Assembly: GCA_026770025.1 (NCBI GenBank)
Contig: JAMXDE010000004.1
Span: 1,798,001-1,862,000, forward strand
Source: Craspedostauros australis
Lineage: Eukaryota; Bacillariophyta; Bacillariophyceae; Mastogloiales; Achnanthaceae
Direction of reading: 5' to 3'
DNA length: 64,000 nt
Within the stretch, counting starts at the first letter, position 1. Each line of letters begins with the position of its first letter. This document shows positions 1 to 35,184 of the stretch, piece after piece. The translations under genes and the position numbers were made by a program. A model generated the notes under the pieces. That model did no database searches. It saw nothing but the letters and a program-made list of their open reading frames with translations, and had not been told where the DNA came from.

Positions 1-3000
1 CCGACCCCACCAGCGAGGCTCCCTCGTCGCTGCAATGCTGTTGTTGCTGGGGGCTACGCAGATGCCTCTGGCGACAGTGACAGCACGTACGACGACAACT
101 ACAAGAAGGAGGGGCCGCGCGCCAGCAGGAACAGGAGAGGAGGCCAGTTCGGGTACGATCCAGAAGAGGCGGGAAACTGGAGGCGCAACGCCATTGTTCG
201 CGTGATGGCAGCGCTTCGATCTAACCTAGATCCAGAATTGTTGCAGTCAATGCCAACAAAAGGGTTCGTCCTTGCAGGCAGACATGATCGAACCATCTGG
301 AGCTATGTGAAACAGATGTGGAACGTCGTATCGTCCGCGCTTTGGACTGTCCTTCTTCCAGAAGAGGATGTGCCGGCTTGTCAGATGGACCAGGTGGTTG
401 AATACGTACGCGGAAACTTGGAGCTTCCACCAATCATGTTGGCACCCAATCTGTACACCCTGGGTTTGCTCGGAGAAACTACATCATCCGTCACAGCAAG
501 AGCTGCCTTGGCCATGTCTGCGCCACATGCACTGTGTACTACTATCTTGGGCAAGCACGCACATGGACTATCAGGGGAACAGAAGGCGCGCATGCCTCCC
601 AAACGCGACATGATCACACGCAGTCAGACAGACACCTTGCGACGCTACTACGACATGATGAGCCACGGTGAAAGCATTCCACTGCGAGTTCTTCAGTACC
701 GTGTGAGTGCCTGCAATCTCTCTGGCGTGGTGTCCTTCCTCATGACAACAACAACATACAAGGCAGGGTTAAGTCACACGGTACAGTATGGTGGAGTTGC
801 ATTTGAGAATGTCCCAGTGTTCGATCGTGGCAGCACTACCATCCAAGAATTATTCGACATGTACTCTTCCGCTACCAACCACCCAGTTGGAATGCCCGCG
901 TTTGCTACTATGACTAACCTACTCACACGCAAAAGCAAGATCAAGACGGGGCTTTCGTCCTTTGAGAGTTACTTCTGGATGGCTACGGAGAAACTCAAAC
1001 AGGCAATTTCGCGCCTAGTTGAGCTGCTGAAGGCTAAGTATGAAGTGGGTGGCGAGGAGCGAAACGATGCCAATGACGAAAGCCGCAACGACAATGATGA
1101 AGCAGATGACGTCATCACGCAGCATGTGCGCACAGCCGATTCTCTCTTGCATGCACTCGAACTGCTTGTTGTGTTCCTCAAATGGGAATTCACCGCGTCG
1201 CACATGCAGCTTCAGTGTGATGACCCAATGCACTCGGCCGCGTTCGCTCTCACCACCGAAAAGGAGAAGAAGAAGGCAACAAGCAATCAACGCAAAACAC
1301 GCACCAACAAGCACAAGAACAAGCGCAAGAAGACCGCCACCATCACAAAGGACACTCCAACCATCACAATTGACATTCCTCCCACCACCTCAACCGAACA
1401 ACCACGTAAAGTATGCAACCGTTGTGGCGCAGCAATGCGATTTGTGGATGATCGTTTTGTTCCTTTTGTCACAATGCTTAAGGACAACGAACTCACAGAA
1501 CACAAGGACGAATTGCAATCAATGCTTGCTTCGGCGCCAGGATTCGCCAATGAAATCAATAATTACATGGCTCACAAAGTGCGTGCCAAAGTGCAATTCC
1601 GACAAATCGCCTTTTATCAATCCGAACTCAACAACAAGCCTGAAAGAGCCTATGTGGTACTCGACCATAAGCAAAAAATTCTACCGACAGGCCAAAGCGA
1701 AGCCCAACAAGAATATTGGGGGAAGAAGGGGATGTCACTGCTTGGGGCAATGGTCATCACGTGTCGCAACGACATCTTTACTTATCGATTCATTGACATT
1801 GTGGTTGGTGGAAGACCCACACAAGACACACTTCAAGTTGGTGGACTACTGGAGATTGTGCAAAAAAAGGTCAAAGACATTCTTCCATCCGTGACTGAAA
1901 TCATCCTACAGAGCGACAATGCGTGTTGTTTTGCCAGTCACGAGCACATCGCACTCATCACATCGGTACTCAACAAGAACCTCAGGCAACGAAACGCGGC
2001 CAAAATCATCGCGTGGATCTACACGGAGGCCCAAACCGGTAAGAGCATGCTGGACACCCACTTTGCGTACATCACACGTGTACTGCGAAAATACGTGCAA
2101 AGTGGACGCGACATCAAGACCGCCCGCCAACTGTACGAAGCACTGAAAGCTGGTAACATCACAGGGGCAACAACGGTACTAGTCAACGCGTCGTTCCTCC
2201 AAGGCAACATCACCACGCTTCCTGGCGCACCAAAACGACGATTCCGCGCATCTGGACAACAGGTACGTCAGACTCACGAGGTGAAGTATGATGATGACCA
2301 GGCACGGTTGGTGGCTGCATCTGGCATCACGGAAGACGTCGTGGTGAAGAGCACCGAATGGGAAGGCTGGGTGATCAACGAGTTGGGTGTCATCGAGGAC
2401 AGAGCATTCACGTCCAACAAGCTGCCCATCACGTCCGAATCATTCAGGAAGACGGACAAGACACGCAAAATGGGGCGCACAGCGGCAGAGAGTAAGGCGC
2501 TTGCGTTCGGCAAAGCCATCCAAGACGGACAGCAACACCTGCCATCGGATCACACCACGGCGCTACAAGACCAGACGGCGGAAACAGAACACCCACCACT
2601 CGCAGTACAAGGCTGGGCGAGCAAAACAGCACGGACCAACGCCAAACTACCAGACTACATCGCGGACAAATTGAAGGACATCTGCGCAGCGTCCGCGAAG
2701 GACCCGAAAAACAGACCGTCTGAACACGAAGCACACGAGCAGTTGATGGACGACAACAGGACCAAAACTGACTGGTACGTACAACTGCACGCAAACCCCA
2801 TGCGCGTGAAGGCGTCGCTGTTTGCAGCGTACAGTGCCAAGCAACGCAAACAAAAGAAGGAGGCTGCCCTCATCAAGACAAAAACCAACACAACAAGCCA
2901 AGCAACAGCAACAGCACCTGCACCTGCAATCGTGGCAACCCACAATGCGCCAGCTGCAACAGAGGAGGAACGAAGAGAAGAAGAGCTGCAGAGAGAGGAA

Positions 3001-3096
3001 GAGGAATGGGAGAATCAGAGGTGGTGTGATGCTCACACAATGAAGGTCCATGCAGAAAGTGAGGCTGTGTTGGGTGATGGGACGGAAATTTTGTGA
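1..3096 (+). CDS. Putative DDE/RNase H-fold transposase-like protein, 5' end beyond window
   Basis: The frame is open from base 1, so the N terminus lies outside the window; the first start codons (GTG 202, ATG 205) are internal. The core carries an Asp in a VLDHKQKILP context (D codon 1663-1665), an Asp in LQSDNACCF (1915-1917) and a TEAQTGKSxxDxHF motif (E 2026-2028, D 2053-2055), an order typical of DDE recombinases. Before it are a Cys/His cluster (about 1200-1240) and a CNRCG pair (1411-1428) that could bind zinc. A Lys/Arg-rich stretch precedes the CxxC pair, and a conserved C-terminal module (about 2640-2850) is followed by an Ala/Thr and Glu-rich tail. Homologues lie at 7693-11652 on the other strand and, decayed, at 33735-34800. 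The transposase role is inferred from the motifs and the multicopy state. I do not recognise a named superfamily. The ORF ends in TGA. Confidence 0.7.
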   Translation, partial: PTPPARLPRRCNAVVAGGYADASGDSDSTYDDNYKKEGPRASRNRRGGQFGYDPEEAGNWRRNAIVRVMAALRSNLDPELLQSMPTKGFVLAGRHDRTIWSYVKQMWNVVSSALWTVLLPEEDVPACQMDQVVEYVRGNLELPPIMLAPNLYTLGLLGETTSSVTARAALAMSAPHALCTTILGKHAHGLSGEQKARMPPKRDMITRSQTDTLRRYYDMMSHGESIPLRVLQYRVSACNLSGVVSFLMTTTTYKAGLSHTVQYGGVAFENVPVFDRGSTTIQELFDMYSSATNHPVGMPAFATMTNLLTRKSKIKTGLSSFESYFWMATEKLKQAISRLVELLKAKYEVGGEERNDANDESRNDNDEADDVITQHVRTADSLLHALELLVVFLKWEFTASHMQLQCDDPMHSAAFALTTEKEKKKATSNQRKTRTNKHKNKRKKTATITKDTPTITIDIPPTTSTEQPRKVCNRCGAAMRFVDDRFVPFVTMLKDNELTEHKDELQSMLASAPGFANEINNYMAHKVRAKVQFRQIAFYQSELNNKPERAYVVLDHKQKILPTGQSEAQQEYWGKKGMSLLGAMVITCRNDIFTYRFIDIVVGGRPTQDTLQVGGLLEIVQKKVKDILPSVTEIILQSDNACCFASHEHIALITSVLNKNLRQRNAAKIIAWIYTEAQTGKSMLDTHFAYITRVLRKYVQSGRDIKTARQLYEALKAGNITGATTVLVNASFLQGNITTLPGAPKRRFRASGQQVRQTHEVKYDDDQARLVAASGITEDVVVKSTEWEGWVINELGVIEDRAFTSNKLPITSESFRKTDKTRKMGRTAAESKALAFGKAIQDGQQHLPSDHTTALQDQTAETEHPPLAVQGWASKTARTNAKLPDYIADKLKDICAASAKDPKNRPSEHEAHEQLMDDNRTKTDWYVQLHANPMRVKASLFAAYSAKQRKQKKEAALIKTKTNTTSQATATAPAPAIVATHNAPAATEEERREEELQREEEEWENQRWCDAHTMKVHAESEAVLGDGTEIL

Positions 3097-6000
3097 TGGA
3101 TGTGCATCACCGCGATAACACGAGTTGTGGAGTTTTGTGGGTGGCAGACCATGCTACTACAACGAGTCTAGAGGCCATCCAAAAAACACATCCAATATCT
3201 GCTTGTCATGCTATATCTCAACAACACATCGTTTGCAATTAAATCTAAACATTGCATTCATACGCCTGACTATCTGTTAATCAGAATACTGAAGTTTAAT
3301 TGATATTGAAACTGTTTTTATTTTCATGTTGATCCACCACACAATTGTGTGGTGGATTCAAAAAAATTCTCGATCAAGCAATGTTGCCCTCCTCTCAGCA
3401 CCCATGATCATCATCATTATCCTGATATTTTGATAAACTGCGCACCACAATGGCTCAGTATACTCCCCATCTATCCAATCCATGAAGATGGGCCACAGAT
3501 ATCCACATGACATGGCCCAAAGTGTCCCTGCAGTGAAAAAGAACGTTGTCAAAAAACCGATTGCAATCCAGATGCGGTATGGATACAGATCCATACCGCA
3601 TCCTTACGATCCTTGCAGCCCCTCCACATGGTCCTCGTGCATTCCCACACTCTCTGGTGACATGCTGATGCATCCAGAGGGGGATGGGCATCGATGGTCT
3701 TGATGGTACACCTCCATTTGGTGATGCCATCTGTTTTTGTGGCACCCCACCAAAACATGATCTGTCGGTACTCATTCGAGGCCACAGCCTCTTCCAGACC
3801 ATTGCAGCAGCCCAAACTTCGCGACGTGCATCTTCAGGCGATGATGCACGGGCCTTGTATGGGCGACTTGGCGATTGGGTGGCTTGATGATGCTGCCTGT
3901 CACAGCCAAAGCCACACCATGGGAACCCCCGCGATACACCGCCAAAACTCTTGTCCTCCACCGTTTCCTCCGCGCGGACACCTTCTCGGTCGTCCCTGAG
4001 CCTCAAACTTCGTGGGATCCTTGGTGATGTCCTTTTGGATGCGTCTTGCGCATCCATGGGCGTTGGTGTGGGATGTGTATGGATCACATGTCCCACATCC
4101 AACAAGCCGATCCGGCGCCAAATTGGGACGTTTGCGCGGGAGCCTGCCGCCGCCCCAAATGAACCGCTCTCGCAGCCCACTCTCGCCCACCCACCAAACG
4201 TTGCATGGCGGTGACGGTGATATGCTTGTATTTGTCTGTGGACCGCTGGTTGGTGCGGCGCGGGGGTTGCCGTTGGACGGCCATTGTGGACTTTTTTTGG
4301 TGTTTCTCTCTCGTCATGTGGTTGTGTCGAGTTTTGCGCTCTCGACCGGCCTCACATATTGGGGGCTGAGGTAACCATTGATTATTTTACCAAACGTACG
4401 AAAGAAGCATCACACAAACACTCCGAATAGTACCAACCCACCCAACCCTTCCGTCACAACGAAACACACAGGACGATGATTCATGTCGTCCTGTGATTGG
4501 TGGTTCATGATGCAGCAGCCAGTTTGGTGACGTAGATGAAGGATCAGACAAACGGAGGGTAGAATGGTTGTAAACGCGAACTCGCCGCTTCTCCCCAAAC
4601 TCTACAACTAGCGCTATCGCGGAGGAGGCGTTGGATGATCTCATCAGATCACCTCAAAAAGAGACTAAACAATTCAAAATGGGAACAACCTCGCTGAAGG
4701 GAAGAACAGTGAAGGGTTAAGTTGGATCGATTTAGTCGTAGCCAACAGCCTGAAACCCGAAAGAGATCGAAAAATGCGCACATCCATTGGTCCATAAAAC
4801 TTAAAATAGGATATAACTCAAAAATGTAATGGTTAATTATTTGTATTAGACCTACAAGGATTACGAATATGTGCTCGGTCTGGATATCCGAGACAATATT
4901 TCTGGAGGTCCATTTCAAAGTGCAGGTCGACTCGCTATCCGGGCTCCTATGGTACGACTACACTGCCAGCCACAACAACTGAGGACTCCACACTTCGGAG
5001 GCTGTCATTAACGACCGTGCTAGAGTTTCTAGAGCATGGAGTAGTTGAATTGACCACATGAGAGGACGATGATGATCCAACGACAGAGGTCCACAAGTTC
5101 GATGAAGAAGCAAACGGTATCGGGTTGCAGTTATCCCATGCCGACCGATAAGGCCCCATTCAGCGAAGTACAGTATTTTTCTGCGGATTTGAGATACTGA
5201 AACGTGATATTATTAGAACATGATTTTTCGTGTTGTACATTAGGGTTAGATAAATCTAGCTAGCTTCTACGACACAAATACCTGGCTGGATTGTCTTCAC
5301 CGCGGACGAAAATGATGACGTTGTTGACGGTCGATATCAGACGGCGATGACACCCAACAGGGTGGATGGTGACGTTGTGGCAGATTCGATGTTGCGTTGA
5401 TTTCTCGCGTTGTTGGTGATTTGGCTCGGTTTGGTGTTTCCTCCTTTGGGCGTGTCGTGTCAAACAGCACAGCGTCGGCGGCATCCCTGCGCATCAGCTG
5501 CAACAGCAACACTTGCGAATACCACACAGCACAGTATTATAGAATATAATGTAATGGAGCACAATGACTTATTCTGTGGTGTGCAAAACATTGTACTATT
5601 TAATGCGATGCTTAGTTTGTCAATACAAAGTCCTGCGCAACCTGCGTTGCTCCCCTTGAACATGGGACGTCATGTTCATCTGCTGAGCTGATGGCACGAT
5701 GCGGAAAGAGACTGGTGGCAGCAGCGTCGTTTCCTTTGTTGTTTCTCGTGTTGTGTTTTGTGTCGTTGTCGGTTGATTTTGACCTTTCCTGTTGTGGCAG
5801 CCATCATTGTGCAAATCACAACACGATTTGGGCAGGAAGAAGGAACCAAATGACCACATTTTTCCCAATTCCATGGTTCCGTTTGCATGATCTGGCGTCA
5901 GAGCACGTTTTAGAGATTCCGATCCTGGTGGTGAGACAGACGTTGAATTTGTCATTTTGAGGGATCGAGCAGAGACAAACAACACGAGAATGGGCTCCAC

Positions 6001-7692
6001 TGCCAAACCATTCCGCCGAGACTCGAACGACCAGTGCTGGCACAAATCAGTCGCAGGGTTTTTCGTGCCTACTTTTGCACGGGAGGTAAAGTCAGGGGCG
6101 GACAACTGCTAGCCGCAACAGCTTTTTGGCCGCCGCGATCACATCGGGTGGTCCCCTGGACCTTTCTTGCATCTGTTGATCTGTGGGGTGGGCGTGTTGA
6201 ATGTGACAGTTTTGCTCGAGTGTTGCAATCCTTGCCTTCCACACGGAATACAATCAGTGAGAGGGATAGGCTGAGGATCGTCGCGAGCTGCCAGCTTGAG
6301 AATGGATCCAAAATAGTAGAGTGAAGTACAGTGGAGCCGAGGCGATTAGCACCGTACAATAGTGCAGTAATAAGAATACAATAGCTGCAAGCAATTTGTG
6401 TGCGATAGCGAATACTGTCATCGTCCCTGCGTTCCATGCCTGATTGTCTGCGTCGTGGTTGATCGGCAGAGAAGATGGGCAATGGTTGCGGCGTGTGTCG
6501 CGGTGTGTGTTGTGTCCACCACTTCGGAAAAATCTCTGTATTCGTGGTCACGTGAAGGAAGTACAACTGTCATTCTTGCATCACGCATGTCACAGCGACC
6601 GCTTGTGAACAACGCAACAGCAACCATGGACACTTATCACATATCAGAAACAACTTCGGTTCGCCTGCATACATGATCCAACATTGTCGTCGTTGCCTCT
6701 GTCGTTGTGGTGTGCTTGTTCTGTTCCTCACTTTGTGATCGCATTCATGAATGAGCCATGTCGTATCGATGGCGTCGGGTCTGTCTATTGGCAACAAACG
6801 ACATTCATCACTAAATGGTGGGCATGCAAAGCGCAGCCATCAGACAAGGCACAAGAACACAAACGTGCACGGCGGAGGGAGGAACGGGCTGCGCAAATCA
6901 ACATAAACGCACGCACCACAACAAACAACGAAGATCACAACAACAACGATGCTGAAAAGGTAGTCGACATGCCTCCACGAATATCTCAGCTGCACATCAG
7001 GCAACACATCGGCCGCCACCATCATGGAATCCTCCACTGAGGAAGCAGCACGCGAAGGTGGCCGAGCCCAGGATCTTCTTCTCGTTTGTTTGGAGGCATG
7101 GATCCAAGCTTTGCGTATTGCGAAGGTCGCGAGCGGATGCCAAACTTCATCATGCTGTCGTCGACGTCTGCGCCGATTATTCATCATGAAGTTGATTCGA
7201 CAATATTTACGATGAGTCGCTGCTTGCGCTCGCAGTGAGTACCAGCGCAGTGTCGGAAGCAAGGCGAGAAGAGCATACCTCTCTTGAATGCTATGGGCGG
7301 CGCCACCGCAATATCTGTTATGCGCAGAAGTGATCTAGATATGGATGTGAATGTGGATACAACCGACTGTCTTTGCGATGGCGGAGGTGACGTGGTATGC
7401 CATGAAGACGCTCGTGATTCGTGCCTGTTTCCTGTTCCCTGTTCCAGCAGTGCGCACATGAAGAATGGAGTGTTGTAGAGAGATCTGACGACGACCATGT
7501 CGCACGACGAGTTCACGAGTATGGAGCTGCGAGTATAGTGCGAAGATAGTATGGTGCGATTATAGTATGGATATGATACGAGAAGGGAGCAACTACGATG
7601 CGAGTAGAGCACACCACCAGAGTACATCGGGAGTACGTTTAGAAGCAGAATGCGATAGTCGAATGGTACATTCCTTGTTTCGGGACATTATT
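3097..7692. other. Gene-poor region between two transposase-like copies
   Basis: No ORF here resembles a known protein. A GC-richer patch at about 3600-4370 is open on both strands, the longest being a 241-codon minus-strand frame at 3455-4180, but it lacks recognisable motifs and could be chance. Short frames at 5620-6105, 6069-6566 and 6840-7262 are likewise unsupported. I found no terminal inverted repeats linking this spacer to either flanking copy. Confidence 0.5.
3332..3357. repeat. 26-bp perfect palindrome downstream of the transposase-like ORF
   Basis: Thirteen bases starting ATCCACCACACAA are followed at once by their exact reverse complement. It lies about 235 bp past the stop codon at 3096 and is followed by a run of A. 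It could be a cruciform or hairpin acting in 3'-end formation, or part of the element's end. The sequence shows only the symmetry. Confidence 0.8.
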
Positions 7693-10600
7693 CTATTCTG
7701 TGGAGGACTCGGCGTTCTTCTCGCCACTTCTCAGAAACGATTTGAAGAAGGAGGCTTGGATCGACACTCTCTGCTCCCAATCATATTTCATTACCCTTTC
7801 CATCAACCATTCAAACACAGCATACGACGTGATCCTGTCGGTCCTGTCTTTGCTTTCTTGGATTACCTCGCACGCAGCTTTTCGGACCTTTTCAGATAGC
7901 TGTGGCGTCTTCTTCTTCTTCGTGGGTGACATCATCCTGATTTTTTGTTCGGATGCCCACAATGGTTTGGATTCCGAAGAGGACGACGCATTGGGATGTG
8001 TCACGGTTGATTTGGCAGGTGGCTTCGATGACAATTTCACAGTTGGCGATGCTGATCCAGATGATGCCGCCGATGATGACGCCAATGATGACGATGAATT
8101 TGCAGTTGCTTTCCTGGATGCTGTTGTCGTGGATGCTTTTGTACTTGCCTTTTTGGTGTACGTGATTGCCCAACCCGACTCGACAAAGTCAGGAGCCTCG
8201 ACCTTCTGCTCAACTGTGACGGTGTTGGCTTCGTCGCCAGGGCGTGGCTGTGAGATGAAATCGAAGACCCAATTTGTGACGAGATCGCGGAGAACGGCAC
8301 TTTTTGGAGTATCAGGCTTGCCGCGAGCGCGTGACGTGCGTGTTGTGTATGTTGGCGGAGACTTGGCTTCGCCTGGCGTCTTCACAAAGGCAGGCTCGAT
8401 CTCTTTGATTTCGTCGCTTTCGAAGTGTATTTGCAGATCTTGGATGTCGTAGCTGTCCAGCTTTTCTTGATCGATGATCTCTGGCTCGGTGACACCAGAG
8501 GATGCTGTGAGTACAGCGCTGTCATCGCGAAAGTCCACCTGATGCACATCTCGGCAGGGAATCTCTTCTGTTCGAAATGGCTTGTTTTCGAGTCCATCGG
8601 ATTGCATGACAGTGGTGCCCTTCAACTTGCCGGCATGTGCAAGCACGGTGATCGTCCCCTTGATTTTGTGCTTTACGAGGTTGGTGAAGATACCTTTCTC
8701 TGTCAACCCCTTTGCGCCCTTTGTGCGGTTGATGGCTCGTCTCAGAACGTTGCCCACGATACCAAAGTGGCCATCCACTGGACTCTTGCCGGTCTGAGCT
8801 TCTGTGAACAGCCACTGTGTGATTTTGGGTAGTTTTGATGGTGGCGTTGATCCGCGGTTCTTGATGGCTTGGTCCTCACTTTTTCGCTTCGCGACCAAAA
8901 ACGCGTTGGATTTGATGCGTCTGTGTTTTGCTCTCTGCGCCATTCTCTTTGCTCGCGCTTTCTGTTCCGGAGTTTTCGCGACAGACTTCCTTCCCACAGC
9001 CCTCTTCACCTTCCGTTCACATTTGGCCTTGATTGGGCGTTTCGTACTCTTTTTGACCTTGGTGATGATGCCAACAGTTGTCCTCTTCGTCGCCTTGGTA
9101 CTGCAAGCTGCACTCGCAGATGTGGCTATTGCAGTAGCAGCAGCGTCATCAGGTGTACTCGTGAATGTGGCAGTTGTGACAGCGTCGATGCTATTGACAG
9201 CGGTTTTGGACTTGGATTGGAGCTTGACAGCGGCAATGGGATGCTTCTTATCATACCCCTTCATGTCGAATGTGACCCCATGCTCATTTCTGTTGAGACC
9301 ATGGATCAATCGGATTGCCGATGGGCTTGCAAAGCAGCTGGCATTGTCACTCTGAAAAATGACCTCCTCGAGACCATTGTGTAGTTTGGGTAGAATGTCT
9401 CTGAGGAGAAGCTTCAGTGCACCAGCAACCTGTAGAGTGTCTTGTGTAGAGCGCTCCTCGATGAGAAGGTCAATGAATCGATGTTCAAATCTTCCATCTG
9501 TGAAGACGACTGTCATCACACCCAGAAGTGACATTCCTGATTTTCCAAAGAATTCACTTTGGGTCTCTTCGTTCGCGGTGGGGAGGAGCTTGCACTTGTG
9601 GTCAATCATGGCGACACATGCATGTGGGTGGGTCATCAAGTATTGGTTGTTTCGCTCACTTTGCTTGAACTGCACCATCGCCCTGATCCGATGAGCCATG
9701 TAGATTTTCATCTGGTTGCTGCAGAAGTCGACTGCGTGTGGCATTGTTTCCACCTCCTCCAAAACGTCGTCATCTGTAATCCATTGCCTAGCAGCTTCGA
9801 CAGCTGTCTTGGCACGGATTGGAAAGAATGTCATGGCAGCAGCGCATTTCTTGCAGACGTGCTTCGATGGCTGCCGATCACATTCGGTGAGAGCAAATGT
9901 TGCAGAGTGGAGATGGTCATCATCACACTCAATTTGCATATGGGAGTTGGTATACTCCCATCTCACAAAGGTGAAAGTAGTGTCGGCATCATTCACCAGC
10001 ATGGCAACTTCGGCACGCAGATCTGTGGTCGCGTCGACGTCAGGGAGTAATTCCAAGATCCTTTCCATCATGAGTTTGAATTCAGTAATGACGTTCGACA
10101 TGTCCATGTAGTAGGAGGACAAGGCGGTGTGTGAAGTGCCACATCTTGTCAGCAGCTTGAGGAGGTCGCGGAAGGTGGGAAAGCCGACTGCATTGTCATT
10201 GTCCTTGATGTAGTCGCGGAACAGTTCCCTTGAAGGAGTACTGTCACGAACAAAGATTGGCAAATTATCGTAGACAATGCCATCGAGCATCACAGTACGC
10301 AATCTTCCGCCCTTGTAGTGCCCAATGGTTGTGATGTACGAGATGGCGTTCTTGAGGGAGTCTTCGGGTGGACGGTAAGGCCGCTCTATTTTTGGAATTG
10401 ACTTCCCAGATAGAAGGGTGCCCGCCAAATCCTTGAATCGGCCGTGCGTGTCTTGGCGCATGGCAATTCGAGTGTTGACAACCTTGGCTTGTTCTTCTGC
10501 TGGTAGGGCATGATGGTGCACTTGCAGGATGCGCTCACATTCTGTGGCACCACATGTGCATGCCAGAATCGCACGTGCAGCTTTAGAGAAGTCGTCATTT

Positions 10601-11652
10601 CCAAAGAAGGCAACGTGACAGACGGTCTCCTCTAAACCTGTGAGAGAGAGAGCCTTGTTGTGCCGGACATACTTGATGACATCACACAGTTGGGGTGGAG
10701 CCATCGTGTTGGGGGCAGCTGCATTCCAAAAGATAGAAACATGTTCTTCCCATGCTCATTCCATGGAGTCCCAATGATATCTGTTGGACTTGGTTGAAAT
10801 CCCTGGGTATCCGCCCTTTGGGAAGTTCCTCAGTGCGCCTGGATCCCTGCCTGTCATCCTGAAGAGGGATAGCAGCTTCTGTTTTGCAGACATATCCTTC
10901 GTCCATGTTGGCCATCCAGGGGCTGAGGCTTCGTTGTTGATGATAGTGTCACCCATCATTGTATCACCATCGCGATTGTTGTCAATGCTGGTTGGGACTG
11001 GAGCAGACATGACAACACTGCGATTCGCTTGGACATGCGGACGAGGTGCCGTTTCGGAGTGGTTTTGATTGTCACCATCTGGGGCAAAGCCCACCTGCCC
11101 AGCTCCTTCATGGTTTGCTCCACATTGTGGGCAGAACGAGAGTCTTGCATATGCCGGATTGCAGCAACCGCAGAACACGATACCACAACCTTGACATTCC
11201 AAGTTGCCAAAGCAGGTGATTGGCATGCCGTGTGCGATTGGTGGCATTGGAGAGGTACCGTATGGAGCAGGCGTGGCAACCATAGGTGGCATGGGGTAGT
11301 TTGGGATGCCAACAAAGGCAGAATGCAAGTTTGCATCATACCCAACAGTTGGCATCGCAGCGTTGTAGTGCCCACCTCCTGTGGGATAGTTGTAGTTGGC
11401 ATGCGTTGGAGGGGATGCAGGGGTTGGACCATAGAGAATGGTTGGGTAGTTGGCGAGGGGTGGGGATGGTACAAAGCACGCCACTGGTGCAATCATCCTA
11501 GATTGGTCCTGAGACACCGATGGTACGAAGGGGAGAGCATAAGGGTTGAGCCCCTGGCGAGGAGAGTGGACATCGCGACCTTCAAGAGGACGGTGAACCT
11601 TTGGTGAAGGCTGGTGGGCGTTGGGGGGAGAGTTTGGGCGTGGGTGGCTCAT
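7693..11652 (-). pseudogene. DDE-transposase-like protein, full-length copy split by one in-frame TGA
   Basis: Two frames that look separate (298 and 1003 codons) are in the same register, separated by a TGA at 10756-10758 and 17 further sense codons, giving about 1319 codons ending in TAG. Alignment with the copy at 1-3096 runs straight through the break, including paired Trp residues seven apart. The N terminus is Pro-rich with a zinc-ribbon-like cluster CQGCG...CGCC...CPQCG (about 11130-11215). The core has Asp in MIDHK (9601-9603), Asp in FQSDNASCF (9346-9348) and TEAQTGKSxxDxHF (about 8765-8803). The gap between the last two motifs is about 180 residues here against about 37 in the other copy, because of a Lys/Arg/Ala/Thr-rich insertion. 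The C-terminal module (about 7725-7905) matches the other copies. If translation restarts after the TGA, the 1003-residue part still holds the whole core. Confidence 0.65.
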
Positions 11653-12336: not shown

Positions 12337-13626
12337 ACCTTCCTATCGCTGCCGCTTTCGTTGCCCATCGCCTTGCCATTGCTGTCGCTTTCATTGCTTT
12401 CATCGGTGCTGTTGCCCATTGCCTTGCCATGCTTTCATTGCTTTTGTTGGTGCTGTCACCCATCGCCTTGCCATTGCTGTCGCTTTCATTGCCCATCGCC
12501 TTGCCGTCGCTTCCATCGCTTTCGCCGGCGCTGTCGCCCATCGCCTTGCCATCGCTGTCGCTTTCATCGCTTTCATTGCCCATCGCCTTGCTGTCGCTTT
12601 CATCGCTTTTGTTGGTGCTGTCGCCCATCGCCTTGCCATTGCTGTCGCTTTCATCGCTTTCATTGCCCATCGCCTTGTCATTGCTGTTGCTTTCATCGCT
12701 TTCGCCGGTGCTGTCGCCCATCGCCTTGCCATTGCTGTCGCTTTCATTGCCCATCGCCTTGCTGTCACTTTCATCGCTTTCGCCGGTGCTGTTGCCCATC
12801 GCCTTGCCATTGCTGTCGCTTTCATCGCTTTTGTTGGTGCTGTCGCCCATCGCCTTGCCATCGCCTTGCGCTTTCATTGCTTTCATTGCCCATCGCCTTG
12901 CTGTCGCTTTCATCGCTTTTGCCGGTGCTGTTGCCCATCGCCTTGCCATTGCTGTCGCTTTCATCGCTTTTGTTGGTGCTGTCGCCCATCGCCTTGCCAT
13001 TGCTGTCGCTTTCATCGCTTTCATTGCCCATCGCCTTGCCATTGCTGTTGCTTTCATTGCTTTCGCCGGTGCTGTCGCCCATCGCCTTGCCATTGCTTTC
13101 GCTTTCATTGCCCATCGCCTTGCTGTCGCTTTCATCGCTTTTGCCGGTGCTGTTGCCCATCGCCTTGCCGTGCTTTCATTGCTTTTGTTGGTGCTGTTGC
13201 CCATCGCCTTGCCATTGCTGTTGCTTTCATCACTTTCATCACTGCTGTCCTCCATCACCTTGCCATCGCTTTCATTGCCCATCACCTTGCCATTGCCGTC
13301 GCTTTCGTCGCTGCTGTTCTCCGTCGCCTTGCCGTCGCTTTCATCACTTCTGTCACTTCCATTGCCTTGCTGTGGCTATCTGTGTCACTGCTGTCCTCCA
13401 TCACCTTGCTGTTGCTTTCATCGCTTTCGTCGGTGCTGTCGCTCATCACCTTGCCATTGCTGTCGCTTTCGTTGCCCATCGTCTTGCTGCCGTTGCCGTC
13501 GCCCATCGCCTTGCCATTGCTTTCATTACCTTCGTCGCTGCCGTCGCCTTGCTGTTGCTTTCGTCGCCCATCGCCTCGCTGTGGCTATCTCTGTCGCTGT
13601 TGTCGTTGCCGTCGCGACCACTCCAT
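12337..13626. repeat. Large pyrimidine-biased minisatellite, core CCCATCGCCTTGCC
   Basis: About 1.3 kb of tandem units sharing the core CCCATCGCCTTGCC, joined by variants of TTGCTGTCGCTTTCATCGCT and GGTGCTG. Units differ in length (roughly 30-50 bp) and spacer, and drift toward the right end. Most units keep triplet phase, so long ORFs appear in all plus frames (hydrophobic Leu/Ala/Ile repeats) and on the minus strand (Ser/Asp/Asn/Lys repeats such as NGKAMGDS). No frame stays in phase across the whole array and none has a flanking domain, so I treat the ORFs as by-products. Confidence 0.85.
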
Positions 13627-13804: not shown

Positions 13805-14605
13805 TGTTGGCAAGTTCCGGACCTCGGAAGCCTACGATCGTGGATAGTCATTCTGTTTGATATTTCATTACTTGAGCACTCCGATCCTCTTGATGTCTCT
13901 GTTCTCTTGCCCGATGCTCTTGGCGTATCTGTCTGTTTCGTAGATTGGGTCTCCGACTACGAGTCAGTGCACAAGATGCTCTCTCGCTGCTATTCGTATT
14001 CTCTCTCTCTCTCTCTCTCTCAATGTTGTGTGTTCATGCTACACAATACTCTGTGTTCAATGTGTACTCCATATTCGATACTTCGTTCATTCACTACTGG
14101 CTTGCCACTCCATGAGTGCTTGCCACTTGAACTCCTCCTCGTGTATCCACAATCTTGATGCCCTTTGGTCATCGAATCTTCACTTTCTGCTTCTGACATG
14201 GAGACAGATGTCGACGTGGTGACATGATGACATCCTGTCGACTTCAGCTGTCGTCTTCCTGTTCCTCCAGATGTCACGTTCCATCGATGATGTCGATGGC
14301 TTGATGAGGATATTGTCATTTGAGGTTTTGTTGGGAAGTACATCGAGGCTCGCTCGATACCATACGTTTCCATTGATGGATGGACGGACGATATTCTTGA
14401 TTCTCTCAGAAATCATTGATTGCAAATTTCCTCCAGAAATTCTCCTCATGTTTCTGTGTTCCATTTCCACTGTGGTTTTGCCAATTTACAGCATATTATC
14501 AACACGAATGTAGTTGTACCGTCCATACATGTATAAGAGAATAGCAGGTGAACGATGCACATATACACGTACATCTCGACATATACTCACATGTACATCT
14601 CGACA
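13805..14605 (-). repeat. 3' LTR of the copia element (subfamily 1)
   Basis: Ends TG...CA in element orientation. It differs at many positions from the 5' LTR at 20936 but resembles the partial LTR at 55571-56143, for example in the stretch reading GATTGGGTCTCC. It contains a CT microsatellite near 14005 and two copies of TACATCTCGACA at its element-5' end. Confidence 0.9.
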
Positions 14606-14613
14606 CCCTTCCT
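14606..14613 (-). other. Polypurine tract next to the 3' LTR
   Basis: On the minus strand the bases just before the LTR read AGGAAGGG, a typical plus-strand priming site for LTR retroelements. Its position supports the LTR boundary at 14605/14606. Confidence 0.7.
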
Positions 14614-14625
14614 GTGTGCATTCGG

Positions 14626-17600
14626 TCATTCGAATGTTCTTGATGTATCAAGGTACGACTTCTCGTGTTCACGTTGTAAGTCGGCCTTGATGTTCTTGGT
14701 GAATCCGTCGCTTGTGTTCTGCTCGGATTTAACGAAAATGATTTCGATGGTTTTGTTGATTACCATGTTCCTCACGTAGTGATGGCGCACGTCGATGTGC
14801 CGCGATCGTTGGGATGTTGATGGGTTCTTGGCGATGAAGATTGCTCCAATGTTGTCCATGCGGACCTTGATTGGCGTCTTCACTGGGACGCCCACACTTT
14901 CGAGTAGCTGCATGACGAAGAAGATTTCCTTTGCTGCTTCGGAAAGGGCAACGTATTCTGCTTCGGATGAGCTGAGTGTGACGGCCTTCTGTGTCTTGGA
15001 TCGCCAAAGGATTGGTACCTTGCACAGGTATAGGATGAACCCTCCTATGCTGATTCTTGTGTTCTTGTCTCCTGCATATTCGCTATCGCAGAAGAGCTCC
15101 ATGTCCCAGCCGTCGTCGTCTGGACGCGCTGGATGGATCTTCAATCCATAGTCCTTTGTATCGATCACATACTTGATGATCCAATTCATCTCCTTCATTG
15201 CGGCCTTGGTGGGCCCGATCAATACCTTGGAGAGTTCCCTCACAGGGTTCGCGATGTCTGGTCGCGAGTGCTTGATGAGGAAGAGTAGCATACCGACGCC
15301 TCGGCGGTATTCGGCATGTTCTTCCGGTCCAACCTTCTGTAGTCCGTTGTCTTTGGATGGTCGTACAATGATTTGACCCGGGGTTCCCGGTGTCCCATAG
15401 CGTTGCATCTTCTCAACCTTGGTTCCGAACTCTTCGATGAGATGTTGGATGAGATGTGGTTGACGCAATGTCGCTCTAGTCTTGTCATGGTTCAGTTCGA
15501 TGTTGCAGCTGAGGTAGTCTCCAAGTCCTCGCTCGATTGTTACCTTGAACTTGCTGCCTTGGATATCCTTCAGGAATGTCTCCAATGCCTTGGAGTCTCC
15601 ACAGCAGAAGCAATCGTCCACGTAGATGGCCACGATCATGCTTCCTTCATTCGTCTTTCTGTAGAACAGGCACGGGTCTGCTGCGCTCTGTTCGAAATTG
15701 ATATTCTTGAGGGTCGATACCAACATCTTGAACCATTGCCTGGCGCTCTGCACAAGTCCGTAGATTGGCTTGTGTAGGGTCAGGGCTTCGTCTGGTTGAT
15801 GATCCATCCTGTTGGGACAGTTCATGTAGATCTCCTCGTTGAGGTCTCCATGTAGGAATGCCGTTACAACATCGACGAGTGCGCAGTCCATCTTCTTGAT
15901 CAGCATGATCACCATCATGACCCGATAGGTCACGTCATGGATGACGGGTGAGTAGTGCTCTTGGAAGTCTACTCCTGCGATTTGTGAGTAGCCACATGCA
16001 ACGAACCGTGCTCGATGTGTGCCGTCACGCTTCAGCTTGAAGACCCATTTGCACTTGCAGCATCTGCGGCCGCGTGGGATGGCGTCTTGTTTGATCTTGC
16101 TGTACACCTTTTGTGTGTTCATGGAGTCGAACTCCTTCTTGATGGCTGCTCGATATCCCTTTCGATGGATGGGATCTGGATGATTGAAGGCTCCATCGAA
16201 TGTTGTTGGTTCGATGTGCTTCTCTGATTCTTTGTTCTCGTCCTGCATCGACAATCCGATGTCGATCATTGGTGCCTCGGTGATGATTGCGTTCATCCCA
16301 TATAGTCCAGTTGTGCTATGATGAGTGATCTCGATCTCTTCTTCTTCGTCTATGATTTCTTCGTCATCTGTAGTTTCGTTGTTGGACTCGTCGGTTATCT
16401 CATCGCTCAGTTCGTCACTATCGTCATTGGATGATGACTTGCTCTCATAGCCTTCCTCCTTTCGACCTCGTTCGTTGAAGTCTGCGAGCTCACACAGAGC
16501 TCTGGGAATACTCTTCCCTGTAGTTGGCTTAGGATTAGCTTCTCCCTTCCTGTCTCGTGCTTCATGACGTCGGATTCTCTCCTTTCTAGCTATGTCACGC
16601 TTGCTTGGTTTGTTGGGTGGAGGTCTGGATGGTACGTTATGTGTAGACTTCGCTGGTGTATTCGGAGGAGTGACGCCTGTGTCATCGTCGGCTTCGTCGC
16701 CGGATGGTATGATCTCGTCATCCTCATGATTGGATTCGCTCCAATTTTCCTCGTCGTTGTGGATTAGTTGGGTTACTGCTCCATCGTCCTCATCATCCTC
16801 ATCGTCGCTGTCCGATAGGATATAGTACCTGTTGCTGTCAGCAAAAGATACTCTCTTTGCTTCTGATGCTTGACGCATTGCCGTCCTTGGCATTGCTCCC
16901 TTCCGTCCGATGGTTGTAAAGCCGTCTGCGTCCGTTGTTCCTACTTCGTTGGATATGTTCGGTGCTGGTGCCCAGCCACGGAACTGTCCGTATGATTGGT
17001 TGAGTCACTTGATATCGCGTGAGCAGATCAGTGACTTGGTCGATGGTCTGTACATGTTGTAGACCCCTGATGCATGTTGGTGTGCACACCCAATGAATAC
17101 CATCTCTTCTCCTCTATTCTTGAGTTTGGCGGTAATCCCGCCATAGGTAGTCTTCACAACACCCACCTCTCCAAACGTGCGGAGTGCATCCGCATATGGT
17201 GGATCGCTGCCAAAGAATTGTCGATGTGGTGACTCCTTTTGATTCTTCGCTACGGTGATGTAGGCGATGGCAGTGGCAGTGTTCGCAGCAGCTGCCCACA
17301 GGCCATGCCTATATTCTTTGTCGAGCTGTGCTCCATTGAGCATGGAGCGGATCTTGGTATAGAGGTACGCGAACTTGCGTTCCACTCTGCCGTTCTGTTG
17401 CGGCGTGTTCGATGCCGTGAATTCGAATTTCACGTTGAGTCCTGCATCGATGAGAATATCCTGCGTGGATTTGTTCTCTCCGCTGTTGTCACCTCGGAAG
17501 ATGATCTGTTGGTCACCAGTCTGTGACTTGATCGTTTGGATGAATCGTTTGATGTACCCTGGTTGATCACTTTTGTTCTTGAGAAAGAAACTCCAGCAGT

Positions 17601-20600
17601 GATCCGTGCAGTCGTCCACGATCAGGGTCCAGTAGCGTTTATCTCCGAAGCTTATGTGTTTAGTGTAACTAATGTCAATGAAGAGCCGTTCGCCGCGGCG
17701 AGTTGCTCTCGGAATGGTTGCCTTCGGGATGTTCTTCACTCTCGCATTCGCGACCGCGCAGTCGCGACATACCGGCATCTCGCCGATAATCTTCCATCCG
17801 TATTGGGCGGCTGTCCGCTTCATGGTCTCGAGTGGCGCGTGGCCGAGCATTCGATGCAGATTCACCGAGCTGATCTCCTTGGATGGATTCTTGATGATGG
17901 CTGTGCAAGCCTTGTCGTCGTTCGTTGGCATGATGGGATGCATCTGCACTCCCGTGATGAATCCGTTGGATGTGGGGAAGACTCGGTCGAATACGATCTT
18001 CGTTCCAGATCCGTTGATGATGTCCATCAGAATGCCGTTGTTACCAAGCTGGTAACCGTTGTACAGAGCCTTGTTCGTAGAGAAAAGGTTCACTGCCATC
18101 TTGGGTGTGTACTTCACATCATCGAGCCGGATGATGTGGCCAGTGTTGTCTCGCTGCTTGACCTTCAAGCAAATGGATCCCATTTTGGGAGAGTCCAGCT
18201 TCGTGCTGTCTCCCACTTGGACGAATGACTTGATGTGCCGCACGTTGAAGAGAGCGGCGTCCGAATTGACGATGTGACACGAAGCTCCGCTGTCGGCAAG
18301 CCAGGTGTCCTTGTTGACCTTGTCTTTGTATCAAGTGCTCAGCTCGTGGAGCTGCTCCACGGCGGCTGTAGCCATCTCATCCATGAGGCCGTCTGCCTCT
18401 TCATCTTCATGCACTCCATCTTCGTTGTATGGATTGTGATTCTCATCAGCTTCGTCGTCGCTTGGTAGTTCTGCGTAGTCCGATGGAACCGTGCTGTTCT
18501 GATGGATTCTGGCCCCTGTTTCGTATGGCGCGACGTGTGGTCGCTCGCGCAGGAGCACCTGCATGCATCCTCCAAGCACATAGTGCAAATCCAATTCGGA
18601 GAGTTCCTCCTCTTCGTTTGCTTGCAGTAGTCGGTTGAGGATGGCTGCGTTTGCGAGGATCTCTTCAATTGATTTGAAGTTATCGGATAGGATGGTGCTT
18701 ACCATGTTCACCCAAATGTATCGCAGTGGTTCGTTCACGAACCCTGGGAACATTGGTAATGCAGCTGTTAGAACCGCATCGTAGATGAGCTGCTTCTGCA
18801 TTCGTTTTGCAGTGACCGTTGGTTCCGGGAAGGTCTGGAGTCGGTAGATGTCGTCGACTCTTCTGGGATTTGGTTCCGGTGGGAATTGGATTCGGATTGG
18901 ATAGACGACGTGTTCATACGGATTGAACGTATCGCTTGGACGGTCCTCAGCTTCGTCGCTGTCCTCTTCATCGAAGATGCCCGTTCTCTCGTTTCGCATT
19001 GCTGGGGGAGGCGGCGCCTCGGCGCGGTTCGCCCCGTCTCTGATGGTGTCGTCGTCGTCTCCATCTGCGCTGTCCTCGTCGGCGTCTTTGTCTGAGCCGT
19101 TCTCGTCGGCGTCCTCGTTGTCTTCGCTCATTGCCTCTTCGATGTCGCTATCGTTGGCCTCGCTGCCCATCTCAGCTCCGTCGCCGTATGGACCGATCAG
19201 GTCGTGCGCGTTGAAGCAGCATTTGTAGCTCACTTCGCGTCTTGGATCCACCTCGTGGATGATTGGCTCCTCACTGAGCCACTCAGGAACGATCTCATCG
19301 TCCTGTACTTCGTCGTCACTTCCGACGCATGCGAAGTTATCGAGGAAGGAGTCTTCGATGTAGTCGTCGGACAACAACATGCAGAGCGGCATGTCTTTCG
19401 CCGAGAGTACCATCTCGTGCCCGCTCTTGTCGTGTCCTTCCGTTGCCGCATTGGCTTGTTCGTTGTTCTTCTTCTTCTCGTTGAACTTCTTCTTTTGGCA
19501 CTCCGCCTCGCGATGTCCGAAGATGCCACAGTAGTTGCACTTCCCGTTGAAGCCGCTTCCCTTGTTGCGGTTGTTGTTGCGATTGTTGTTGCGCTTTCCG
19601 TTCATCTTGTTGTTGTTGTTTTTCTTGTTGTTCGATTTCTTGCGTTCTGGACAATCGGCGGATCTATGACCATACACGCCACAGTTGTGGCAAGTACCCT
19701 TGAAGTTACTGGTGCTCGTGAAGCCAGTGTCGTTGCTCTTCGTGTTGCTGTCTTGGAAGTCGTCGACGTACGCTTTGCCTCCTTTGTGAGTGGCGTATGC
19801 AGTGCAGAGTACTCCTCTGATCGTGTTGATGGTAATCAGTTCCGGATTGTACGTGAGTTGATGTTGGAAGTTCACGATGTGTGTACTGTACTCGTTGCTC
19901 ACCGTGCTGAGGATTTGCATGATCATTTCCTCGTCTGTGATCTCGTACTTGACATCGTGAAGACGCGAGCGTAGACCCTCGAGTCATGTGATGTAGATGT
20001 CTGGGTCCGAGTCTCTCTTCATCTTTTCGTTGTTGAATTGGCGCTTGAGTTTGATCTTTGTCGCCGCGTCGGATGGTCGAAACTTCTCCGCGAGAACGTT
20101 CCACGCTGCGTGTGCGTCTCCTTCGGGGTAGTCGTCAGAGATGCATTGGTTGATGTATTGGATGGCCTGCTTGCCTTTTCCTTTCTCTGCATCCATCATG
20201 AGGATCAGATCGCTGAAGCAATCACATCCCAGCTCGTAGATCTCTTCCATCGCTTCCTTGGCTTCACCGGCGGCTGCCGCGATCTCGTTCACTGTTGGCA
20301 CCTTGGTCTTGCCCAACATCACGTCTCTCGTCTTCTGTGCACAAGCGTATGCCTTCGCTTGGGACTCCCATGCGCTATAGTCTTCCTGTTCACCGTTGAA
20401 CATCGGCGCCTTGATGCGTCGCTTGTTCATGTTGGCTGATGTCGCCATGTTGATTCGTTGTTGCGTTGTTGGTGCGCTCGCGCCCTTGATTTCCGTTTGT
20501 TTCTGTGTTGTCACTTTTTCGGTTTTCGCCTGTTGTTGCGCGGAGATTGTTTTCGTCACAAATTCTCCTCCTGGTGGTGTCTCACTTTTCCCACTTCGTT

Positions 20601-20853
20601 TGGCTGTGCGAATGCTCTTCGTCACACCAGTCTCCTCTTGCTTGATCGCCTTGAGAATCCTCTCCTTCTCGCGATGTTGCCTTGCAGACTGTTCCTCTTC
20701 GGTCTCGTCGATGGCGCTTGCGTCTTCGCCTGATAGGACAGTAGCCGCTGCTACTTCCTTCTCTTCTCATGGTGGAGTCTCACTCGCACCTTCTTCTTGC
20801 TTGATAGTCGGGTTGGACAGAGGGATGTCTCTCAATTCCTCTTCCTCGCTCAT
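14626..20853 (-). pseudogene. Copia gag-pol polyprotein, one frame with four internal TGA codons
   Basis: From ATG 20853 the same frame runs about 2075 codons with no TAA, TAG or frameshift. It is broken by TGA at 20767-20769, 19984-19986, 18331-18333 and 17005-17007, and ends with TGA at 14626-14628. Gag (about 20450-19800) has a UBN2-like region, then two CCHC knuckles CHNCGVYGHRSADC and CNYCGIFGHREAEC. An acidic stretch and an uncharacterised helical region of nearly 390 codons follow before the protease DSGAS (about 18290). Integrase has H-H-C-C (HRMLGH...CRDC) and a D-D-E core (RLFIDISYT, IFRGDNSG, NGRVERKF). RT has YVDD, and RNase H has FCDSEYAG, SSSEAEY and MDN. The TGA at 17005 stands where related polyproteins usually have Trp (RDIK-W-LN). 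It could be a decayed element, or one whose UGA codons are read through; I cannot tell which. Confidence 0.88.
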
Positions 20854-20935
20854 TCAGCCTGCTGCTCTTGAATGATGTTCGTCTTCCTCGCACGATCCGA
20901 TCCACAGGCTCGCCCTGATCTATCGTTTATAAACG

Positions 20936-21729
20936 TGTTGGCAAGTTCCGCTCACGGTAACCTACGATCGTGGAAGATGGTGTTGGTTGATAGTCGTCTG
21001 TTTGCTATTTCATTAGTTGGCTACTCCGATCCTCTCGGTATACGCCGTTCTCTTGCCCGATGCTCTTGGTGCTTCAATCTGTTTTGTAGATTCAGTCTCC
21101 GACTATGAGTCGGTACGCGAGATGCTCTCTCGCTCCTCTCTGTATTCTCTCTCTCTCTCAACATCGTGTGCTCGTCGCGCACGATATTCCGTGTTCGATA
21201 CGTACTCCATATTTGACACTCCGTTCATTCAGTACTGGCTCCTACTCCGTGAGTACTCGCCATTTGAAGTTCACCTTCTGTATCCATGATGCTGATGTCC
21301 TTCGGTCATCGGATCTTCGCCTCCTGCTCTGACTTGGAGACAGATGTCGACGTGGTGACATGATGACATCCTGTCGACGTCAGTAGGCGTCCTTCTGCTC
21401 TCCAGATGTCACGTTCCATTGGTGATGCAGGAGTCTGTCAGATGATATCGTCATCTGAGGTTTAGTTGGGAAGTACCTCGAGATTCTCTTGGTACCATTG
21501 ATGGATGGACGGACGATCTTCCAATTCTCTCAGAAATCGTTATTTGCAAATTTCCTCCAGAAATCTTGCCCCTTTTCGTGTGTTCCGTTTCCCCTGTAAT
21601 TCTGACGAATCACAGTATACTATCGACACGAATGTAGTTATACCGTCCAAGTGCGTATGAGAGAATAACGGGTGAACGATGCACATATATACGTACATCT
21701 TGACATATACTCACATGTACATCTCGACA
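20936..21729 (-). repeat. 5' LTR of the copia element (subfamily 2)
   Basis: A 794-bp copy with the same termini as 13805-14605 but much closer in sequence to the solo LTRs at 31753-32547 and 39593-40387, for example in GCTCACGGTAACC at one end. It carries a CT run near 21150. Confidence 0.9.
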
Positions 21730-31752: not shown

Positions 31753-32547
31753 TGTCGAGATGTACATGTGAGTATATGTCAAGATGTACGTGTATATGTG
31801 CATCGTTCACCTGTTATTCTCTCATACGCACTTGGACGGTATAACTACATTCGTGTCAATAGCATGCTGTGATTCGTCAGAATTCCAGGGGAAATGGAAC
31901 ACACGAAAATGAGCAAGATTTCTGGAGGAAATTTGCAATCGACGATTCCTGAGAGAATTAGAATATCGTCCGTCCATCCATCAATGGTACCAAGAGAAGC
32001 TCAAGGTACTTCCCAACTAAACCTCAGATGACGATATCATCTGACAGACTCCTGCATCACCAATGGAACGTGACATCTGGAGAGCAGAAGGACACCTACT
32101 GACGTCGACAGGATGTCATCATGTCACCACGTTGACATCTGTCTCCAAGTCAGAGCAGGAGGCGAAGATCCGATGACCCATGAAGATCATGGATACTGAA
32201 GGTGAACTTCAAATGGTAAGTACTCATGGAGTAGAAGCCAGTACTGAATGAACGGAGTGTCGAATGCGGAGCACGCATCGAACACGGAGTATCGTGTAGC
32301 ACGAGCACACAATGTTAAGAGAGAGAGAGAGAGAGAATACAGAGAGGAGCGAGAGAGCATCTTGCGTACCGACTCATAGTCGGAGACGGAATCTACGAAA
32401 CAGATTGAACCACCAAGAGCATCGGACAAGAGAACGGGCGTACACCGAGAGGATCGGAGTAGCCAACTAATGAAATAGCAAACGAACGACTATCAACCAA
32501 CACCATCTTCCACGATCGTAGGTTACCGTGAACAGAACTTGCCAACA
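31753..32547 (+). repeat. Lone copia LTR (subfamily 2), plus orientation
   Basis: A 795-bp LTR in the opposite orientation to the other copies, reading TGTCGAG...CCAACA on the plus strand. It is followed directly by a fragment of a different copia family. The flanking bases (GCACA left, CCCAT right) do not match, so it is not a simple solo LTR with target duplication. Confidence 0.9.
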
Positions 32548-33586
32548 CCCATACATGAAGGTCATCCAGCAAGTCTACACCATCAAAGACATTGGACCAC
32601 CCAAATACAATCTGGGCAACGACGATTCCAGGAATGTGAAAGACAAATGGAGCGTTGGATGTGACAAATACATCGCAAACGTGATGGAGAACATCGAACG
32701 GCAGCATGGAACACTCCATGACCAGTATGTTCCCATGTGGGACAAGGACCATCTGGAAACGGATGACTCCAAACTACTCACACCAGACAAACACCAACAG
32801 TTCCAGCAGCTCATCGGCATGCTGAACTGGGTCATTCAACATGGACGTTTCGACGTCACCTTTGCAACTTCTTCACTCTCTCAATTCACTGCATCACCAC
32901 GGAAAGGACATCTAGCAAGAGCACTCAAGATATGGAGCTATCTCAAGAGTATGTCCACACTCAGAACACAAATCGACTCCAGACCCATGATATTCGACAA
33001 TTTCAACTCGACGCTGTCCAACTCAGAATTGGTGGTGCAAATGAAGGAAGAATACCCTGAGGCACAGGAGGACGTCGACGACTGGTCACCAAAGCCAATC
33101 TATCCGGAGCTGCCAATGTATGCATTCGTCGATGCTGACCATGCGCACGATCTTGTCACACGCCAATCAAACACCGGGATCATCCTTTTCCTCAGCAGGA
33201 CGCCTGTGTACTTCTTGAGCAAGCGGCAGACATGAGTCACAACGTCTACATACGGAGCAGAATTCAACGCGATGCGATCAGTGACAGAAGAAATCATTGC
33301 ACTCCGATACGCACTCTGATCGCTGGGGAGTCCGTGTCCAATCATCGACGGTCACATTCTGCGACAACAATGTGGTGATCTCGAAAACGACGATCGCAGA
33401 CAGCCTATTGCAAAAGAAGCATGTGGCAATATCATTTCACTGAGTCCGTGAGGCTGTGGGAGCTGGGACACTGGTTCCAGTCCACGTCCCATCGGCTCAG
33501 AACTTCGCTGACATGCTCACCAAGGCATTGGTGAGGCCAACACTAACACTTCTTGCCACAAGCCTGTTCTACAGGGGTCCACCTTG
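32548..33586 (+). pseudogene. 3' pol fragment of a second Ty1/copia family
   Basis: The translation shows the RT connection region (YNLGNDDSRNVKDKW, then LIGMLNWVIQHGRFDV) and RNase H (YAFVDADHAHD, SKRQT, STYGAEF, FCDNNVVIS, NFADMLTKAL). The family differs from the element at 13805-21729 in sequence throughout. The frame is broken by TGA at 33233-33235 and 33317-33319, a one-base shift soon after, and TGA at 33441-33443 inside SFH-VREA, where relatives often have Arg. No TAA or TAG falls in the reconstructed frame up to about 33586. The 5' part of the element is absent. Confidence 0.85.
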
Positions 33587-34800: not shown

Positions 34801-35184
34801 GAACAGGTGTGACATCATCAGCGAGTTTTGGCGATACCCGGCGAAGTCTAAGGAAGGTCTACAACGGCCGAAGACAAAAACTATTGCAAGGTCTATAACT
34901 TTTGATCCACAACTCTCCCGATTTTTAAATTAAATACCCCTCGACAGAATTTTACGTAGATTCCGAATATGTACTTATTTTGTTAAAGTTTAAGTCACTA
35001 TCAGGCACGACTGCACCTTCGTTCACTCGAGTGGGTCCTATACATCGGGGATGAGCGCAGGTGCGCATAACTCCGTTCGTGCACGTGGGATGTAGGTACC
35101 TTTCATGGGAGCTGCTGTCCCATCAACTCTTTGCGCAGTTTCATTTGTGACGGGACGGGATGGGGGCTCCTCTGATGTGTTTCC
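34801..35184. other. AT-richer spacer before the LRR gene's 3' end
   Basis: No gene is visible. The segment near 34905-34960 is AT-rich and may contain the 3' end of the decayed transposase-like element or the 3' UTR of the LRR gene. Confidence 0.4.

Follow-up and report, generated by a model that had tools for sequence, protein, structure and literature searches.

The stretch of DNA analysed here (the window; 64,000 bp, G000:C2:1798001-1862000, in a genome of 74.8 Mb and 90 contigs) carries two long related genes, copies A and B, which very probably belong to a large family of autonomous DNA transposons of the cut-and-paste type, recently active in a diatom. In group A, the subfamily of copy A, this is documented by terminal inverted repeats, target duplications, an empty site, multiplicity and near-identical copies at different sites, and multiplicity was found in the other groups as well. 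The family is well delimited, recently mobile and ordinary in kind, and is without match in the protein libraries searched. The first-pass annotation, made from the letters of the window, had proposed a transposase-like family and had named single-locus orthology without mobile signatures as the objection to it; the proposal was borne out, and the copies, end repeats, duplications and empty site described below show that the objection does not apply.

The two genes, and the parts of element A that lie inside the window, have the following positions.

1..3096, plus strand: internal and 3' portions of the copy A transposase gene, whose open frame starts 735 bp before the window.
1..4946, plus strand: element A, the in-window part of a 6,040-bp transposon (G000:C2:1796907-1802946), the left end of which lies 1,094 bp before base 1.
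4792..4946, minus strand: right terminal inverted repeat of element A, which on the minus strand starts GAGCCCGGATAGCGAGTCGACC; it matches the left repeat with 83% identity across 155 bp.
4947..4950, no strand: CTAT, the 4-bp target duplication of element A on its right side; the left counterpart falls outside the window.
7693..10704, minus strand: transposase open reading frame (ORF) of copy B (P0002), with a 181-residue stretch from the second conserved Asp to the Glu of TEAQ.
10756..11652, minus strand: N-terminal part of the copy B transposase (P0003), with a Cys cluster resembling a zinc ribbon by eye.

The full frame of copy A (locus L009) has 1,276 amino acids (aa) and its start is at G000:C2:1797266, P0001 (202-3096, plus strand) being the portion of the frame after the first start codon inside the window. 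P0003 and P0002 are separated by a frame break, so that the window copy of B is frame-broken, and in L002, where the match to P0002 is 99% identical, the two parts are fused into 1,319 aa. Alignment of the proteins over most of their length revealed copies A and B as paralogous, with 33% identity (E 2e-73) and a second stretch of 32% (E 1e-19), and the motifs D(HK), D(NA) and TEAQ-GK-xx-D-x-HF are common to both, as had been described for the two long copies in the first annotation.

When comparing 20 group A loci a sharp left boundary appeared, and the right end of the window copy holds the left terminal repeat in inverted form, which is 155 bp long and begins GAGCC. The right end of L022 was left out, and among the 19 copies examined the repeat was found at both ends in 16 (L013 and L027 are without the left repeat and L017 without the right). 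An exact 4-bp target duplication flanks 15 of these 16 (ctat, atat, ctat, atag, atag, atag, ttaa, atat, atag, gtat, ctat, ttat, atac, ctat and gtag), the sixteenth, L028, having an altered left tip and no duplication. All 15 duplications, together with the left flanks of L017 and L022, have TA at positions 2-3 and can be written NTAN (TA makes up 2.8% of the dinucleotides in the window). Since the outer bases vary yet agree on both sides, the pattern indicates a stagger of 4 bp rather than duplication of the 2-bp TA alone.

A search with the joined flanks of L026 gave 40 scored matches (65 candidates), of which 38 are single junction-spanning matches at other places in the genome while the remaining two are the element's own flanks, overlapping by exactly the four duplicated bases. 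Three of these empty-site paralogues were read letter by letter and contain GTAG once (L077) or GCAG once (L078 and L065). A host multigene family, or a set of domesticated paralogues that do not move, would agree with the long open frames under purifying selection reported below, but the sharp ends, the 15 exact target duplications and the empty sites leave it a negligible probability, and for group A it is ruled out by the empty site.

The copy counts are lower bounds. At least 47 genome matches were listed for P0001 (from 507 first-look candidates) and at least 77 for P0002 (46 of 1375 candidates scored), while 36 of 445 candidates were scored for the L069 protein, and the genome holds dozens of copies of the family. 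A single open frame of 1,170-1,322 codons is present in 14 of the 20 group A loci read, and among eight group B loci L002-L005 carry open frames of 1,319-1,472 codons. The group A copies L019 and L020, situated on different contigs and flanked by different duplications (atag and gtat, respectively), are 99.9% identical over 5.7 kb, which points to recent movement. The ratio of nonsynonymous to synonymous substitution rates (dN/dS) is about 0.25, with values of 0.23-0.30 in all eight pairs computed, showing coding selection in group A as well as in other groups.

Across 1,298 aa the proteins of the L069 group (C28, C43:544507 and C14:808422) have a rounded identity of 100%, and the near-identity of the loci in C28 and C43 reaches at least 2.6 kb beyond the gene on its upstream side, their right end being common. 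No left boundary was found within ~2.6 kb upstream in C28 and C43 and no family-type terminus at the right end, and these loci, which may be parts of a larger element or the result of recent segmental duplication, are not used as evidence of mobility. A further subfamily, 58-60% identical to residues 609-1079 of L069, was observed at G000:C37:532850-536284 and C57:234603-238025, with open frames of 1,687 and 1,627 codons, respectively.

For element B one end could be placed in the window.

5152..5286, plus strand: 3' terminus of element B (GGCCCCATTCAGCG...), common to other B copies; ATAA flank at 5148-5151.

This end (window 5152) is shared with the copies in C82 and C63, with different flanks, and NTAN precedes the terminus in all ten B-terminus hits read, the window copy included (40 genome hits listed). 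The termini L057 (C82) and L058 (C64) lie on two contigs with an identical flank of 20 bp and may stem from a single insertion, the common flank being due to segmental duplication or haplotype copies. No left end of element B was found in the window or in the copies in C63, C82, C18, C19 and C17, and the target-side NTAN was seen in group B on one side only. The termini of the family are GAGCC and GGCCCC/GACCCC. In the copies in C2, C82, C63 and C19 the B gene is adjoined by a copia-type element, with the same junction in each; the one in the window has a reverse transcriptase match above its cut-off and weaker matches to gag and the integrase core (rve, E 4e-4, below cut-off). This retroelement, which is probably a mosaic, and its surroundings are placed as follows.

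13805..21729, minus strand: copia-type retroelement with long terminal repeat (LTR)-like ends at 13805-14605 and 20936-21729 that are only 78% identical, the flanks being unmatched by reading; in C82, C63 and C19 its 3' part is found next to element B, at the same junction.
12338..13615: array resembling tandem repeats, situated between the B gene and the LTR of the copia-type element; it varies among B copies.
31753..32554, 39593..40387 and 55571..56135: additional copies of this LTR, one of them just upstream of the decayed third copy.

The third copy of the family gave the following two features.

33805..34530, plus strand: third copy, decayed, C-terminal region only; tblastn of P0001 with 30% identity to residues 644-888, E 1e-28.
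35016..35037, minus strand: terminus of the family type belonging to the third copy, reading GACCCACTCGAGTG... on the minus strand, with a CTAT flank at 35038-35041, identified by pattern and reading.

Both the match at 33805-34530 and the terminus at 35037 agree with the decayed copy that had been annotated near 33.7 kb; no left end of this copy (33.8-35.0 kb) was found.

To describe the transposase itself eight proteins from four subfamilies, with 28-37% identity between groups, were aligned. D684, D769 and D960 are invariant in all eight and so is E951 of TEAQ; with both E951 and D960 invariant, the third acidic residue fits DDD or DDE alike. The invariant blocks of the core are DHK, KxGMSLLG, QSDNAxCF and TEAQxGKxxxDxHF. 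Also invariant are two Trp of the N-terminal region, H/C residues that precede the core (HSA.FAL ... C..C...M) and a small number of sites in the C-terminal region. A zinc-ribbon-like Cys cluster was seen, by eye, only in groups B, L068 and L069.

The distance from the first Asp (D1) to the second (D2) was measured in nine proteins, two of them the window copies and the other seven from the genome, and is 83-84 residues in every case (83 in A and 84 in B), in line with the conserved spacing of about 84 first annotated. The distance from D2 to the Glu of TEAQ is 36 residues in group A, 80 in L069, 99 in L068 and 181 in group B, and to the Asp of xDxHF it is 45, 89, 108 and 190 residues, respectively. 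The gaps of about 37 and 180 residues and the variable insertion before the last motif, both proposed from the two window copies, are thereby confirmed and extended to four subfamilies. The segment is a spacer that varies in length and not an insert that is present or absent; it is of low complexity and contains no invariant column between groups in the eight-protein alignment. With 36 to 181 residues at one fixed position of the core, it shows where such an enzyme tolerates insertions.

Target duplications are 8 bp long in hAT and P elements and 5 bp in Transib. A superfamily of DDE enzymes in which a large, all-alpha domain is inserted (hAT, P or RAG/Transib-like), to which the insertion had been likened in the first annotation, would account for a variable-length segment before the last motif, but the comparison is supported by no sequence match and the insert proved to be the low-complexity spacer, as short as 36 residues and without an invariant column between groups. 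The duplication of the family is moreover 4 bp and not the 8 bp of hAT (PMC12730594), no Pfam match was obtained and a C(2)C...H(3-4)H motif between D2 and D3 is missing, and we regard membership in such a superfamily as very improbable. In Transib/RAG1 and relatives this motif lies between the second and third acidic residues (PMC12730594), and as neither C(2)C nor H(3-4)H was found, by reading, in the 45 residues between D2 and D3 of group A, membership in the CMCT group (CACTA/Transib/RAG-like) was rejected.

Searches of Pfam, NCBIfam, PHROG and PDB sequences gave no credible match to the family proteins, and eight of them run against Pfam at E up to 1 gave no integrase-core, MULE or DDE-family match. 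Scans with short patterns, which would miss distant relatives, gave 68 and 87 pattern matches in viral contigs and 19 in each of two scans of genome (prokaryotic) contigs, none of which was confirmed. The first annotation had suggested structure prediction as a check for an RNase H fold. Models of the two window sequences have low confidence (mean predicted local distance difference test score, pLDDT, 44 and 48) and gave no significant structural match; the core in both is predicted to run from a strand that holds D1 through two more strands and a helix to a fourth strand, which ends with D2, and a second helix, an order that may suit RNase H at low confidence.

In the mechanism proposed for the family, one long gene would encode a transposase with an N-terminal region and a probable RNase-H-like core, in which the three invariant Asp (of DHK, QSDNA and xDxHF) would be the catalytic residues for DNA cleavage. 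The transposase would bind the terminal inverted repeats (~155 bp in group A) and excise the element, and the element ends would then be joined with a 4-bp stagger that has TA at its centre, which would produce the NTAN duplications.

The Sola elements, Sola1-3, were reportedly founded as a group by Bao et al. in 2009. Judged by gross features, compared with the published description and not by sequence, Sola is most likely the closest kind to the diatom family, and the suggestion that the family is a divergent Sola-type element appears to us about evenly balanced. Repbase holds 23 superfamilies of DNA transposons, 21 of them with DDD/E enzymes (PMC10045372), and Sola is described as having a DDD transposase, a 4-bp duplication, a size of mostly 2-9 kb, inverted repeats of 11-1124 bp and variable termini (PMC10741241; also described in PMC3627910 and PMC4455052). 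The three invariant Asp as a possible triad, the 4-bp duplication of group A, the 6 kb of element A and its 155-bp repeats would all fall within this description, the termini of Sola being very variable, and another diatom, Cyclotella cryptica, has annotated Sola elements (PMC7466962). A difference is the target, NTAN with any edge base in the family and reported as AT-rich for Sola2. Membership in Sola has been defined by PSI-BLAST convergence with Sola1, Sola2 or Sola3 transposases (PMC4455052). The first-pass annotation could match its motifs to no named superfamily, which holds for the profile searches; the anatomy, with three invariant Asp and a 4-bp duplication, points to Sola as a candidate, which it had not considered.

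An undescribed DDD/E superfamily, perhaps restricted to diatoms or stramenopiles and unrelated to Sola below the general level of RNase H, is a possible though less probable origin. It would agree with the lack of credible matches in Pfam, NCBIfam, PHROG and PDB sequences, with the lack of a confirmed relative in viral or prokaryotic contigs and with the NTAN rule, which is absent from the descriptions of other 4-bp families in the excerpts available; the libraries, however, need not hold a Sola model, so that their silence does not discriminate, and the gross features fit Sola (PMC10741241). In the literature excerpts no described diatom family with these features was recognised, which is not proof of absence in print. 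The narrower proposal of a new superfamily of eukaryotic DDD transposons, characterised by NTAN duplications, an expandable D2-D3 spacer and very recent activity and without a relative found outside the genome in the searches made, we consider rather unlikely.

The target of piggyBac and Kolobok is a fixed TTAA, and that of Harbinger is a short TA-containing sequence. Apart from Sola, 4-bp duplications are described for Ginger1, Ginger2, piggyBac, some IS481EU, AcademX (3-4 bp), some PHIS and MuDR-type elements. The family resembles piggyBac in its 4-bp duplication (PMC10045372) and in having TTAA among its sites (L016), but this sequence occurs in one of the 15 duplications, and membership in piggyBac or Kolobok was rejected on this ground. 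In the MuDR/IS256 group duplications are 4-10 bp (PMC10045372), yet none of the eight family proteins matches MULE, though the MULE family has matches at nine other places of the same genome. The PIF/Harbinger group (PHIS) is similar in its short target with TA and has duplications of 0-4 bp (PMC10045372), whereas the diatom family has no DDE-family Pfam match, and the bases on either side of its TA are variable and form part of the duplication.

Among integrase-like superfamilies that duplicate 4 bp, Ginger2 comes close in its inverted repeats of ~50-180 bp and its 4-bp duplications at the AT-rich target RTATAY (PMC2836005). It has TGTNR termini and H2C2 together with an integrase-type DDE core (PMC2836005), neither the termini nor the core being found in the diatom family, where the termini are those given above and no integrase-core (rve) match was obtained at E up to 1 in eight proteins, while the same library gives rve, though weakly and below its cut-off, for the adjoining copia-type element. 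Membership in Ginger2 was rejected on these points, and an origin from any such integrase-like superfamily is, in our judgement, extremely improbable.

What was an orphan repeat protein can now be described as a defined transposon that moved recently and whose ends, target and empty sites are known, constituting a testable system in a diatom and an anchor for annotating unclassified diatom repeats, and it would represent either a divergent branch of Sola or one more transposase superfamily.

Two other genes were observed in the window.

35185..38313, minus strand: ORF of 1,042 residues, by eye resembling a leucine-rich-repeat receptor-like gene.
63119..64000: RING finger protein (zf-RING_2, E 7.5e-13), reaching the window end.

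In the genome, the silicon transporter profile PF03842 has at least 88 matches listed, the best of 831 bits and 32 covering most of the profile, while among 14 control genomes one was matched, below the cut-off; the many silicon transporter genes suggest that the host is a diatom.

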